A DNA stretch of 64,000 bases from Anaeromyxobacter paludicola (GTDB taxonomy: Bacteria > Myxococcota > Myxococcia > Myxococcales > Anaeromyxobacteraceae): assembly GCF_023169965.1 (NCBI RefSeq), contig NZ_AP025592.1, positions 62,001 through 126,000 of the forward strand. The letters run 5' to 3'. Position numbers and translations under genes: made by a program. Each line of letters begins with the position of its first letter. Position 1 is the stretch's first letter. This document shows positions 5,692 through 58,121 of the stretch, piece after piece. The notes under the pieces are model-generated. The model made no database searches. It saw nothing but the letters and a program-made list of their open reading frames with translations, and was not told where the DNA came from.

Positions 5692-6138
5692 ATGGCGGCG
5701 AGCGACGTGGCGAAGATGCGGGAAGAGCTCACGCAGCTGTTCGGGCAGGTGCCGGGGTGGGTGGACGAGCTCCCGGAGTCGGCGGCGGCGGGCTTCTGGG
5801 CGACGATGCGCGACTTCCAGCTCGCCGAGACGCGCATCCCGAACAAGTACAAGGAGCTCATCGGGCTCGGGGTCTCCGGCGCGACGCGCTGCCGGTACTG
5901 CGCGCTCTTCCACACCGAGGCGGCGCGGCTGTTCGGCGCGACCGACGAGGAGATCGCCGAGGCGAGCATGATGGCGGCGCACACCATGGCCGCGAGCACC
6001 TTCTTGAACGCCCAGCAGGTGGACTACGACACCTTCCGGCGCGAGACGCTCGAGATGGTGGCCTACGCGAGGTTGCACGCCGGCGCGGCGAGCGCCACGC
6101 AGGCGACCCAGGCGACCCAGGTCGCGGGGCATGCCTGA
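5692..6138 (+). CDS. Carboxymuconolactone decarboxylase/AhpD-like protein
   Basis: This 148-residue protein has the AhpD-type active site CRYCALFH (Cys67, Cys70, His74) in an all-helical CMD fold, followed by the conserved stretch EEIAEASMMAAHTMAASTF. AhpD-like proteins act as thiol-disulfide reductants or peroxidases. The substrate is unknown, and the CxxC favours redox activity over decarboxylation. A purine-rich GGAGGCGAG precedes the ATG by a few bases. The next small gene overlaps its end by 8 bp. Confidence 0.85.
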   Translation: MAASDVAKMREELTQLFGQVPGWVDELPESAAAGFWATMRDFQLAETRIPNKYKELIGLGVSGATRCRYCALFHTEAARLFGATDEEIAEASMMAAHTMAASTFLNAQQVDYDTFRRETLEMVAYARLHAGAASATQATQATQVAGHA

Positions 6139-9211: not shown

Positions 9212-9421
9212 CTAGCGGCCGCCGAGCAGCGAGGCCGCCGTGACGCCGAGCGCCTTGGCCATCTTCTCGATGGTCTCGAGCGGCGGCGAGCGCTGGCCGC
9301 GCTCCAGCATCGAGACGTACGAGACCGAGATCCCGATCTTGTCGGCGAGGGCCTTCTGCGAAAACTTCTTCTTGGCGCGCAGGCGGCGAACGTTACCGGC
9401 GAAACGCGTGAGCAGGTCCAT
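9212..9421 (-). CDS. Small XRE-family transcriptional regulator
   Basis: The 69-residue protein is almost entirely one HTH_3 (Cro/C1-type) domain: KKFSQKALADKIGISVSYVS is the helix-turn-helix, and MLERGQRSPPLETIEKMAKA follows. There is no ligand or oligomerisation domain. It is divergent from the selenoprotein operon that begins at 9545, with about 120 bp between them. It may therefore control that operon, but this rests on position only. Confidence 0.85.
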   Translation of the reverse strand: MDLLTRFAGNVRRLRAKKKFSQKALADKIGISVSYVSMLERGQRSPPLETIEKMAKALGVTAASLLGGR

Positions 9422-9544
9422 GCAGTCGAGCCATCTAGCCGCCGCCCCGCCGCGCGCCGCGTCCTTTTAGGGGCTGGCGGTGGGTGAACGGTGACCCTAA
9501 GTGACGGAGCACACCCCGGACTCCCCGGTGTCGAAAGGAGCAAC

Positions 9545-10051
9545 ATGGCCAACAAGCCCGTCTACAAGCTGGAGGTCGGCGACGAGGCGCCCGACTTCGA
9601 GCTCCCAGCCACCGGCGACACCGCCGGTAAAGGAGGGGCCAAGAAGCCGGTCCGGCTCTCGGACTACCGCGGCAAGAAGAACGTGGTCCTGGCGTTCATC
9701 CCGGCCGCGTTCACGCCCGTCTGAAGCGTGCAGATGCCCTCGTACGAGGAGGATCTCTCCGAGTTCGAGCGGCGTGACGCCCAGGTCCTGGGCATCAGCA
9801 CGGATCAGGTCCACAGCAGCGAGGCGTGGGCGAAATCGCTCGGCAGCTTCTCCTATCCCATGCTCTCGGATCACTGGCCGCACGGCGCGGTCAGCATGAA
9901 GTACGGCGTGCTCCGGGGGGACAGCGGGCTCTGCGAGCGGGCCATCTTCGTCGTCGATAAGAAGGGGAAGATCGCCTACATCGACATCCACGACATCTCC
10001 GAGCAGCCGCCCACCGACAAGATCATGGCGGCGCTCGACAAGCTGAAGTAG
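9545..10051 (+). CDS. Selenocysteine-containing peroxiredoxin (AhpC/TSA family)
   Basis: The ATG follows a good ribosome site (AAAGGAG). The reading frame is broken once, by TGA at 9722-9724 (codon 60), within PAAFTPV[12 protein letters not shown]. In ordinary peroxiredoxins this exact position is the peroxidatic Cys of the PxxxTxxC motif, so TGA most likely encodes selenocysteine. Reading through gives a complete 168-residue thioredoxin-fold peroxiredoxin with [15 protein letters not shown], the active-site loop, YGVLRGDSG and the FVVDKKGKI strand. Cys in GLCERA is a candidate resolving residue. It would reduce hydroperoxides in the cytoplasm. The GrdB-like selenoprotein gene begins 24 bp downstream. 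An automatic annotation would split the gene or call it a pseudogene. Confidence 0.85.
9732..9756 (+). promoter_or_regulatory. Candidate bacterial SECIS element of the peroxiredoxin gene
   Basis: Directly after the TGA, AGAT (9732-9735) can pair with ATCT (9753-9756), and CCTC (9738-9741) with GAGG (9746-9749), leaving a GTAC loop. The loop G is at +21 counting the T of TGA as +1, within the usual 16-37-nt window for bSECIS apical loops. The hairpin overlaps codons for MPSYEED. Confidence 0.6.
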
Positions 10052-10075
10052 CGCCGCACCGGCGCCGGAGGGGAC

Positions 10076-10774
10076 ATGCCGAACGAGGACAAGCCGCTGG
10101 AGCTGTCGCGCTACTGCGTCCCCTATACGCCGCTCCGCACCCGGCTCGAGGAGGCGAGCGTCTGCATCGTCTCCACGGCCGGCGTGCGGATGCGGTCCGA
10201 CCCGCCGTTCGACGTCGAGGGCGACGCGACCTACCGGGTGATCGACGGGCAGGCCAGCGCCGCCGACCTCGCCTACGACGACGCGCACTACGACCACGCC
10301 TGCGCCGACCAGGACCTCAACTGCATCTTCCCCATCGACCGGCTGCGGGCGCTCTGCGCCGAGAAGCGGATCGGCGGGCTCACCGACCGCCACTTCTCGC
10401 TCGGCTTCTCCACCGCCCTGCGCGAGCTGCGCGAGACCACCATCCCCCGGCTCGTCCGCGAGGTGGACCGGGCCCGGCCCGACGCCGTGCTCCTCACCGG
10501 CGGCTGACGCCTCTGCCACCGCACGGTGGTCACCGTGCAGCGCGTGATCGAGATGATCGGCATCCCGACGGTGCTCATCACCGTCGAGCCGGAGGAGAGC
10601 CGGCAGGCGCGCCCGCCGCGGGCGCTCTACCCGAAGGGCTTCGTGCCCGGCCACTCGCTCGGCAAGCCGAACGACCCGGCCCTGCAGCAGTGGATCCTCT
10701 CCGACGCGCTGGCGCTCCTCACCGCCGAGCCCAGGCCGGGAGAGGTCATCGAGAAGGACTACGGGGCGCCGTGA
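10076..10774 (+). CDS. Selenocysteine-containing GrdB-family reductase (glycine/sarcosine/betaine reductase B-like)
   Basis: The frame runs from ATG 10076 to TGA 10774 with one internal TGA at 10505-10507 (codon 144). The context VLLTGG-x-RLCHRTVVTVQ matches the GrdB/PrdB selenocysteine site (I/V-L-T-x-x-U followed by Cys and basic residues). The Sec would form a UxxC redox pair with Cys147. Upstream, FSLGFSTALRELRETTIP and ARPDAVLL, and downstream, MIGIPTVLITVEPEESRQ, fit the GRDB family. At 232 residues it is shorter than clostridial GrdB (about 430), and no grdA, grdC or grdE gene is near, so it is unlikely to be a true glycine reductase. A selenol-based reductase working with the upstream peroxiredoxin is plausible but inferred. 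Confidence 0.82.
10521..10538 (+). promoter_or_regulatory. Candidate bacterial SECIS element of the GrdB-like gene
   Basis: GCACGGT (10521-10527) pairs perfectly with ACCGTGC (10532-10538) around a GGTC loop. The loop lies at +24 to +27 from the T of TGA. The E. coli fdhF SECIS also has a GGUC-containing apical loop at nearly the same distance, so this is a strong match in both shape and spacing. Confidence 0.7.
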
Positions 10775-10780
10775 AGCGTT

Positions 10781-10815
10781 CCCTCCCCGCGCGCGGGGGA
10801 GGGCGAGGGAGGGGG
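10781..10815 (+). repeat. Dispersed GC-palindrome repeat
   Basis: CCCTCCCCGCGCGCGGGGGAG followed by a GGG-rich tail ending in GAGGGAGGGGG. It belongs to the family also seen near 20.4, 20.5, 23.8, 25.0, 34.4, 40.9 and 45.8 kb. It lies just after the selenoprotein operon, where its hairpin could end transcription. Confidence 0.7.
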
Positions 10816-10833
10816 AGCCCCGCGGCGCGCCGC

Positions 10834-12480
10834 TCACGGCCCGCCGTAGCTCGTGAGCCCGCCCGGCGTGACCTTGCCGGTCTTGTCCTTCGTCGCGAGG
10901 TGGCTGAACCAGACCACGCGCGGCTTCGACCAGCGGTCGATCTGCACGCTGCGCACCGGCTGCGCCAGGATGGGCGAGAGCCCCGCCGGCGTGCCGGTCC
11001 AGGCGCCGTTCTTCAGGCGGCCGATGCCGCCCCAGGCGAACCCCACCCAGAGCGAGCCGTCGGAGTCGTCGCAGCCGAGCCCGCCCACGCTGTTCCCGAG
11101 CCCGCCCGGCAGGTCGAGGTAGGTCGCCGTCCCGTCCGGCGCCCGCCGCACGAGGCCGTGGATCGAGGAGCCCTGCCAGAGGGTGCCGTCGGCGAAGAAG
11201 CACATCGCGCTCGTCGCGTCCATGGCGGCCGGGTCGATGGCGTCGAGGGTCCCGTCCGGCCAGACGTCCCAGTACGAGAGCTGCTGGTTGGTCCCGTTGT
11301 AGGCGGGCCACATCGGCTGCCACCAGCCGCCGTTCGGCATGGCGCCGTACCCGGCCTTGGAGGCGGTGCGGTAGCCGTTCGAGGCCCAGGGATCGCCGGT
11401 GGTCGGGTCGATGGCGATGGCCCACGCCTCGCCGGTGAGGAAGAGCCCGGAGTTGGAGGCGATGGCCGGGTGGTCGTGCTCCCAGACGCCCATCGAGTCG
11501 GGCCACTGGTTCGCCGGATCGCGCCAGCCGCGCAAGGCCGCGTTGGCGAGGAGCACGGAGAAGGTGGCGTGGGTCCCGCCCATCCAGACGTCGCCGTACT
11601 GCGGCGTGCCCTTGAGGTGGTTCACCACCACCCGGTAGACCTGCCGCAGCTTCCGCCGCCCCTCGGTCCAGGTGAAGTCCCAGGTCGGGCAGGGGTTGGG
11701 CGTGCCCGGGCCGTAGCCGCGCGTCTCGCAGACCGTGCCCGGCGGCGAGGCGATGAGCACGTGGCGCGTGCGCGTGACGCTCGCGCCGTCGAAGGCGACG
11801 AGGTCCACGCCGCCGGAGTCGAGGCACCAGGTGAGGTCGGCGTCCCCGTCGGTGCCGCGCCCCTGGTAGCCGACCGCCGCCTGTCCCGCCGCCGCGCCGG
11901 CCACCGAGATCACCGGGCAGAGCGCGTCGGGCTGCGAGGTCGGGATCGCGTTCGGGCAGTCGAGCGGGTTCGTCGGGTCGAGGGTGGTCGAGCAGCTCTT
12001 GGTGAGCCCGGCGGCGTCGGGATCGACGCGGTGGAAGTAGGGCTCGCCGGGCCGCTTCACGTAGAGCGCGTCGTAGCCCGCCACGTAGACGTTCCCCCCC
12101 TCGTCGGCGGACGCGTCGTGGACGTCGCTCGAGAGCCCCTGCGCCGCGCCGTAGACCGTCCAGCCGCCCTGGCTGGGGGCGGGCGTGAGCGTGACGCCGC
12201 CGTCGGTCCCGCCGTCGGTCCCGCCGTCCGCGCCGCCGCCGTCCGCGCCGCCGCCGTCCGCCGGGCCGGCGTCGGGGGCGCCGCCGTCGGGCGCGCCGGC
12301 ATCCGCGCCGCCGTCTCCGCCACCGTCCCCGGTCGCGCCGCCGTCCGCCGCGGGCGAGGTGCCGCCGTCGTCCTGGTTCTCCTGAACGCCGCCGCCCGCC
12401 GGCGTCCCGGACGCGCTCTTGCCGCAGGCGAGGGAGAGCGCCGCCAGCACCGCCACGAGAGCTCCCCGCCGTCCCGCCAT
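10834..12480 (-). CDS. Lipoprotein with Asp-Gly-Gly linker and propeller-like domain
   Basis: The 548-residue product has a lipoprotein signal (basic start, LAALSLAC lipobox). Residues about 35-100 are a low-complexity linker of DGG, DAG and PDGG units, a hallmark of Myxococcota surface lipoproteins. The rest contains repeated strands ending in GxLWxG or GSLWVGF (for example ADGTLWQGSSIHGLV and DDSDGSLWVGFAWGG), as in two-component-regulator or NHL-type propellers. It is probably exposed at the outer membrane. The function is unknown. The linker is encoded by a GC-rich minisatellite at about 12190-12370. Confidence 0.8.
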   Translation of the reverse strand: MAGRRGALVAVLAALSLACGKSASGTPAGGGVQENQDDGGTSPAADGGATGDGGGDGGADAGAPDGGAPDAGPADGGGADGGGADGGTDGGTDGGVTLTPAPSQGGWTVYGAAQGLSSDVHDASADEGGNVYVAGYDALYVKRPGEPYFHRVDPDAAGLTKSCSTTLDPTNPLDCPNAIPTSQPDALCPVISVAGAAAGQAAVGYQGRGTDGDADLTWCLDSGGVDLVAFDGASVTRTRHVLIASPPGTVCETRGYGPGTPNPCPTWDFTWTEGRRKLRQVYRVVVNHLKGTPQYGDVWMGGTHATFSVLLANAALRGWRDPANQWPDSMGVWEHDHPAIASNSGLFLTGEAWAIAIDPTTGDPWASNGYRTASKAGYGAMPNGGWWQPMWPAYNGTNQQLSYWDVWPDGTLDAIDPAAMDATSAMCFFADGTLWQGSSIHGLVRRAPDGTATYLDLPGGLGNSVGGLGCDDSDGSLWVGFAWGGIGRLKNGAWTGTPAGLSPILAQPVRSVQIDRWSKPRVVWFSHLATKDKTGKVTPGGLTSYGGP

Positions 12481-26718: not shown

Positions 26719-27396
26719 TCAGGCCTCGACGGTCTCGAGGATGGGCCACTCGTAGGCGCGGGCGACGTTGCGCAGGCGGAGGTCCGGGTTCACCGCCGCC
26801 GGGTGGCCGACCACCGCCAGCATGGGGTAGTCGGAGAAGCTGTCGGAGTAGGCGTGGCTCCGGTCGAGGGCGATCCCCTGCCGGACGCAGTAGTCGCGGA
26901 TGACCACCGCCTTGTGGGCGCCCTCGACGATCGGCGGGACCACCCGCCCCGTCGCGACCCCCTCGACGAAGTGCATCCGGTTGGCGATGAGATCGTCGGC
27001 GCCGAGGTGGCGCGCCAGCTCCTCCACCGTGAAGTCGAGCGCGCCGGTGACGAGCACGATGCGGCAGCCGGCGCGGCGCGCCTCGTCGAGCAGGTGCGGC
27101 GTGCCCTTGTGGATGGCGGGCCGGAGCACCTCGCGGAAGAGCTCGCGGGAGAGCTCGCGCAGCCGGTCCTCGGTCTGCCCCTCGTAGAACCGGTAGAAGA
27201 CCTCGTTGAAGACCTTCCGGTTGGCCTTGTCGAGGAGCCAGAGCGCCGGGACCGACAGCGCCGTCCTGGCGGTCCGCCAGGCGGTGCCGAAGATCGTGCC
27301 CTGGTTCATGGCGTAGAAGGCGAAGGCGTGGACGATGTTGGTCGCGACCAGCGTCCCGTCCACGTCGAAGAAGGCAGCCTTGCGCGAATCCGCCAT
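26719..27396 (-). CDS. HAD-superfamily phosphatase (SerB-like, subclass IB)
   Basis: The 225-residue protein has HAD motif I DVDGTLVATN, motif II VLVTGALD, and motif III/IV AVVIRDYC with YSDSFSDYPML. The helical cap between residues 30 and 90 is typical of subclass IB. It would remove phosphate from a small metabolite such as a glycerol-phosphate or phosphatidyl intermediate. It lies 3 bp upstream of the LarA-like gene in the same operon. Confidence 0.88.
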   Translation of the reverse strand: MADSRKAAFFDVDGTLVATNIVHAFAFYAMNQGTIFGTAWRTARTALSVPALWLLDKANRKVFNEVFYRFYEGQTEDRLRELSRELFREVLRPAIHKGTPHLLDEARRAGCRIVLVTGALDFTVEELARHLGADDLIANRMHFVEGVATGRVVPPIVEGAHKAVVIRDYCVRQGIALDRSHAYSDSFSDYPMLAVVGHPAAVNPDLRLRNVARAYEWPILETVEA

Positions 27397-57890: not shown

Positions 57891-58121
57891 ATGGCTAAGC
57901 CGCCGCGGAAGACCAAGAAGGCGAGGGGGAAGGTGGGAAGACCCAAGGGCAGCGGCGTGAAGGGGCACGTGCAGACGCTCCTGCAGCTGCGCCCCGACCA
58001 GCGAGCGGCGCTGCTCGAGCTCGCGGAGGCCCGCAGGGTTCCGGGTCGGCCACCGCCGCTCTCCGAGGTCGCACGCGACCTCCTGGACAAGGCCCTCGCC
58101 AGGAAGAAGGACAGAACCTGA
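57891..58121 (+). CDS. Small basic DNA-binding protein
   Basis: The 76-residue product has a Lys/Arg-rich N-terminus with a GRPKGSG AT-hook-like core. It is followed by a ribbon-helix-helix-like part (HVQTLLQLRPDQRAALLELA, LSEVARDLLDKALARKK). It is a candidate repressor or architectural protein of the element. Confidence 0.6.
   Translation: MAKPPRKTKKARGKVGRPKGSGVKGHVQTLLQLRPDQRAALLELAEARRVPGRPPPLSEVARDLLDKALARKKDRT

Follow-up and report, generated by a model that had tools for sequence, protein, structure and literature searches.

D-proline reductase possesses a 26-kDa selenoprotein subunit, PrdB, which attacks pyruvoyl-bound proline. In PrdB, selenocysteine (Sec) attacks the electrophile and the neighbouring cysteine resolves; the selenenylsulfide is then reduced by a dithiol. 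To our knowledge, the PrdB family has been described only as a subunit of amino-acid reductases, and we know of no function assigned to PrdB relatives outside proline fermentation. For 1-Cys peroxiredoxins, on the other side of the locus described here, the reductant is often not known. AhpE is a 1-Cys enzyme that requires mycoredoxin and mycothiol, according to the citation of Hugo 2014 in PMC10950700.

Both families are already catalogued for Anaeromyxobacter, as the portion of Zhang and co-workers (2006) consulted here names peroxiredoxin (3) and also proline reductase in the selenoproteome of A. dehalogenans (PMC1794560). Excerpts from the Global Ocean Sampling selenoproteome describe the neighbouring pairs Prx/SelW and Prx/Prx-like 2 (PMC2398784). 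These resemble the present locus in that a Sec peroxiredoxin lies next to a second redox selenoprotein, but here the partner belongs to the PrdB family instead of being SelW or Prx-like, and the arrangement is conserved in 23 genomes. The pairing of a peroxiredoxin with a PrdB-like protein is not reported in the consulted parts of PMC1794560 and PMC2398784 or in the operon section of a 2026 review (PMC13188914); Haft and Tolstoy 2025 may note it. PrpU of Eubacterium acidaminophilum was weighed as a possible PrdB-like counterpart for PrxU but dismissed, since it is an 11-kDa CxxU protein of a glycine decarboxylase operon (PMC4056300).

The window analysed here is the whole 64-kb stretch of Anaeromyxobacter paludicola DNA. 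The features on which the analysis rests are the following.

9212-9421, minus strand: small XRE-type helix-turn-helix regulator gene (Pfam HTH_3, 9.4e-20), divergent from the pair below, with synteny within the family only.
9545-10051, plus strand: Sec peroxiredoxin gene of the AhpE-like 1-Cys type, with ATG at 9545 (GTG at 9491 also possible) and an AhpC-TSA match (1.1e-36) across the TGA.
9722-9724, plus strand: TGA codon of Sec60 at the peroxidatic position (PAAFTPV-U-SVQM), placed by alignment; TGC in L022 and L023.
9734-9775, plus strand: candidate SECIS of the peroxiredoxin gene, a predicted hairpin of unproven register, with synonymous constraint and a fold z of -1.6.
10076-10774, plus strand: PrdB-like selenoprotein gene encoding 232 residues with Sec144-x-x-Cys147 (TIGR04483, 9.1e-42).
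10505-10507, plus strand: TGA codon of Sec144; TGA in 21/23 and TGC in 2/23 orthologues.
10514-10516, plus strand: codon of Cys147, the presumed resolving cysteine of the UxxC site, conserved without exception in the orthologues and in clostridial PrdB.
10521-10538, plus strand: SECIS of the PrdB-like gene, a hairpin of 7 bp whose GGUC loop occupies 10528-10531, with compensatory changes, and loss of the loop in the Cys forms.

Codon 144 of the frame 10076-10774 is TGA in the context VLLTGG-U-RLCHRT, and the frame ends at a second TGA. The sequence-only reading had taken codon 144 for Sec in a Sec144-x-x-Cys147 site and proposed a comparison of this position in homologues. The assignment was borne out: Cys147 lies three residues after the TGA, third-position GC is 0.99 both 5' and 3' of it, and each of the 23 orthologues keeps either Sec (21, as TGA) or Cys (two) at residue 144. 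If the inner TGA were instead an ordinary stop, the homology downstream would belong to a decayed gene. That the hairpin behind it folds alone no better than shuffles (single-sequence z = 0.03) would fit such a stop, but the coding composition runs on past the TGA, the orthologues conserve TGA or replace it with a Cys codon, and the genome carries the full Sec machinery, which together make an ordinary stop hardly credible. The machinery comprised SelA (514 bits), SelB (295 bits), tRNA-Sec (75 bits) and SelD (391 bits), thus its absence, which the sequence-only reading had named as damaging to a Sec assignment, was not observed. The SelD gene itself has an in-frame TGA and would encode a Sec-containing SelD.

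The loop of the E. coli fdhF SECIS is GGUC. In the hairpin at 10521-10538 the GGUC loop lies at +24 to +27 from the TGA, a likeness to fdhF already noted from the letters. The hairpin was supported by comparison of 20 sequences. Both-sided changes were found in 7 cells, and pairing held in 92.9% of cells (shuffled mean 87.3%), a level that 0/500 shuffles reached; the shuffles ignore the relatedness of the sequences. The GGUC loop was lost in both Cys forms of the gene, and two Sec forms (L018 and L020) had a GGUC-loop hairpin in a shifted register. At the peroxiredoxin gene, codons 61-78 showed synonymous differences in 0.05-0.11 of pairs, compared with 0.30 for the whole gene. An Rfam search of 9300-10900 gave no SECIS match. 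As for bacterial selenoproteins in general, the TGA of both genes aligned with TGA or Cys codons, a SECIS hairpin (a candidate one in the peroxiredoxin gene) lay downstream, and selA, selB, selC and selD were present.

A scan of the window gave four TGAs whose coding composition is good both 5' and 3': 10505, 9722, 26721 (minus strand) and 58119. The one at 26721 (ILETVEA-TGA-PMRTPSK) had a match to the Lar_N (lactate racemase) domain on one side and probably marks adjacent genes sharing one frame. The plus-strand TGA at 58119 (LARKKDRT-TGA-STVSVPVYN), with coding-like composition on each side, is probably a gene junction.

Reading the TGA at 9722-9724 as Sec fuses two open reading frames into one peroxiredoxin, whose stop is separated from the start of the PrdB-like gene by 24 bases. 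This gene had been overlooked in the sequence-only reading, which saw nothing relevant nearby. The peroxiredoxin motif PxxxTxxC/U is present as PAAFTPVU, with P53, T57 and Sec/Cys60 invariant. Among 16 aligned sequences, column 60 was the only one with Cys or Sec in 16/16 (column 130 had it in 5/16), and no conserved resolving cysteine was found. The closest solved relative was M. tuberculosis AhpE (Rv2238c; E 1.7e-31), which likewise has no conserved resolving cysteine; the protein described here differs from it in the Sec at the peroxidatic position, in its myxobacterial host, and in having a PrdB-like gene as partner instead of mycoredoxin. Structures predicted for the two proteins from few-sequence input had pLDDT values of 41-42 (41 for the peroxiredoxin), too low for the models to be of use; the likeness to AhpE is one of sequence.

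The best NCBIfam model for the downstream protein was TIGR04483 (PrdB), with 143.1 bits, below the 300-bit equivalog cut-off, while all glycine/betaine/sarcosine reductase models stayed at or below 46.8 bits. TIGR01917 and TIGR01918, with 39.6 bits (cut-off 602) and 45.6 bits (cut-off 65.45), both fell short. Identity was 38.6% to Acetoanaerobium PrdB and 37% to Ligilactobacillus PrdB, compared with 26% to Acetoanaerobium GrdB. On these scores and identities we assign the protein to the PrdB family. The earlier label of GrdB family holds insofar as the Pfam GRDB profile (PF07355) passed its gathering score (24.4 bits against 22), but the match is partial (profile positions 215-345 of 347) and the PrdB model fits far better. 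The protein is homologous to the C-terminal half of GrdB, the glycine reductase selenoprotein B, with Sec aligned, but has no N-terminal half. Its short length had been read as a sign of a function other than that of GrdB; this argument is void because PrdB is normally of such length (TIGR04483 has 238 positions). The likeness to PrdB comprises this length (about 240 residues), the UxxCHR site, and an identity of about 37-39% throughout.

Partners of amino-acid reductases, which had been proposed as a search, were not found: GrdA (GRDA) was absent from the 10 genomes searched, with a positive control, and a protein with PF09338, which covers PrdA and GrdE, was absent from 22 genomes including the source genome, with both control records positive. 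The suggestion that the protein is not a glycine reductase was thereby supported, and the same holds for proline reductase. The orthologues also have invariant Cys14, Cys30, Cys76 and Cys83 beside the UxxC site. Cys83 is common to some clostridial and lactobacillar PrdBs, whereas Cys14, Cys30 and Cys76 are missing from those aligned. These cysteines may relay electrons or bind metal. Going by these searches, this PrdB homologue has neither a proline reductase nor a glycine reductase to go with it. That it serves nonetheless as a D-proline reductase subunit would agree with its best NCBIfam model, its identity to PrdB, and the 'proline reductase' entry for A. dehalogenans in the consulted portion of PMC1794560, but the score of less than half the cut-off, the three additional cysteines and the position behind a peroxiredoxin all set it apart from PrdB, and the absence of PrdA already largely refutes this identity. 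We regard it as very improbable, and myxobacterial genes annotated 'proline reductase' are probably misnamed.

Searches for solved structures with the PrdB profile gave no credible relative, and a scan of viral contigs gave no relatives. Two PrdB-like genes outside Myxococcota were noticed. On a plasmid of Paraclostridium bifermentans (L034, 5001-5666), an unannotated PrdB-like gene follows a gene with a CBO2463/CBO2479 domain and is likely a true prdB overlooked by annotation. On a megaplasmid of Peptoclostridium acidaminophilum (L036, 5941-6654), a gene annotated prdB has no prdA among its listed neighbours, and is possibly an orphan PrdB.

Close orthologues, defined by more than 250 bits, were sought in 60 relatives and 195 Myxococcota genomes. 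The PrdB-like gene was found in 23 genomes, all Myxococcota, and in 23/23 the peroxiredoxin gene directly preceded it in the same orientation, the aligned coding regions being 8 to 66 nt apart. A scan of genome contigs gave three close relatives only, with Anaeromyxobacter among the relatives. Among the 60 relatives, 21 had the peroxiredoxin subtype (>250 bits) and 20 of these had the PrdB-like gene, which was found in none of the others. G025 is the one that departs from this: its Sec peroxiredoxin gene is not followed by a PrdB-like gene, indicating that the partner is dispensable at least in that genome. In the wider context of nine genomes, the pair was the sole conserved neighbourhood beyond the closest family; within that family, an XRE regulator, a metallophosphoesterase and an aldehyde-dehydrogenase-like gene were conserved as well. 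It is possible that the XRE-type gene at 9212-9421 regulates the pair. Retention of the pair in all 23 genomes suggests one joint peroxide-defence system.

The codons at the two Sec sites varied together: both were TGA in 21 genomes, both were TGC in two (G007 and G012), and no genome was mixed. The trees of the two genes each put G007 and G012 together, with strong support, adjacent to their sister G002, whose two genes both encode Sec. The tRNA-Sec and selA were retained in G007 and G012, and selB and a Sec-containing SelD were also present in G007, so that loss of Sec decoding does not explain the switch to Cys, at least in G007. A reaction common to both proteins accounts more readily than a shared regulon for a joint switch in a lineage that decodes Sec. 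However, the switch is a single event in a single lineage, and is therefore suggestive rather than proof.

We tentatively favour the explanation that the two genes form a two-gene, two-selenoprotein operon in which the UxxC site of the PrdB-like protein serves, by analogy with PrdB, to reduce the 1-Sec peroxiredoxin; the direct contact, the direction of electron flow and the donor are inferred. The AhpE-like peroxiredoxin would reduce peroxides and be left as a selenenic acid, and the PrdB-family protein, having lost its PrdA partner, would act as its dedicated reductase. Sec144 would attack the oxidised Sec60, giving a mixed diselenide that Cys147 would resolve into a selenenylsulfide inside the UxxC site; this site would then be restored by a cellular dithiol such as thioredoxin, perhaps via Cys14, Cys30, Cys76 and Cys83. 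The relay draws support from the strict pairing, from the pair being all that is conserved of the neighbourhood beyond the closest family, from the joint change from Sec to Cys, from a peroxiredoxin with no second conserved Cys whose nearest solved relative, AhpE, requires an outside reductant, and from the selenenylsulfide stage of PrdB itself; no PrdA, GrdE or GrdA was found in the searches. Against it we count G025, which has no partner, and the fact that co-operonic genes can share regulation without contact. With somewhat more reserve, we propose that a branch of the PrdB family may have become a selenol-based peroxiredoxin reductase, providing a Sec-to-Sec relay in myxobacterial peroxide defence, and that the joint Cys switch may mark matched Sec chemistry.

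The PrdB-like protein might instead reduce some small electrophile itself, the peroxiredoxin only protecting it or clearing nearby peroxide. It does have the UxxCHR site in common with catalytic PrdB, along with many residues of the core, and the four invariant cysteines could bind a metal or form a substrate site; the pyruvoyl subunit of the PrdA/GrdE type, however, was not found in any of the 22 genomes, and no conserved metabolic gene adjoins the pair outside the family. We consider this role unlikely. The two genes might also be held together by a shared stress regulon and Sec supply, without their products passing electrons directly to one another, while thioredoxin or an AhpD-like protein recycles the peroxiredoxin. 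Retention of the peroxiredoxin alone in G025 speaks for such an arrangement, as does a gene at 5692-6138, about 3.4 kb upstream of the peroxiredoxin gene, for a CxxC-containing (RCRYCALFH) AhpD-like protein of the CMD family. This AhpD-like gene, however, did not turn up next to the other pairs examined, and a regulon would not readily account for two sites changing jointly to Cys in a lineage that still decodes Sec; we consider it less probable again than the small-electrophile role.

The strict two-selenoprotein arrangement joins the question of the peroxiredoxin reductant with that of the PrdB relatives and opens both to tests, which the Cys/Cys pair occurring naturally in two genomes permits without Sec expression.

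A second, distant group of the GRDB family was also noticed in Myxococcota (L025, L026, L027, L028 and L064-L068), with about 30-39% identity. Most of its members have a TGA, in a motif such as VPA-U-PFC, and their short flanks yielded no relative of the AhpE-like peroxiredoxin.
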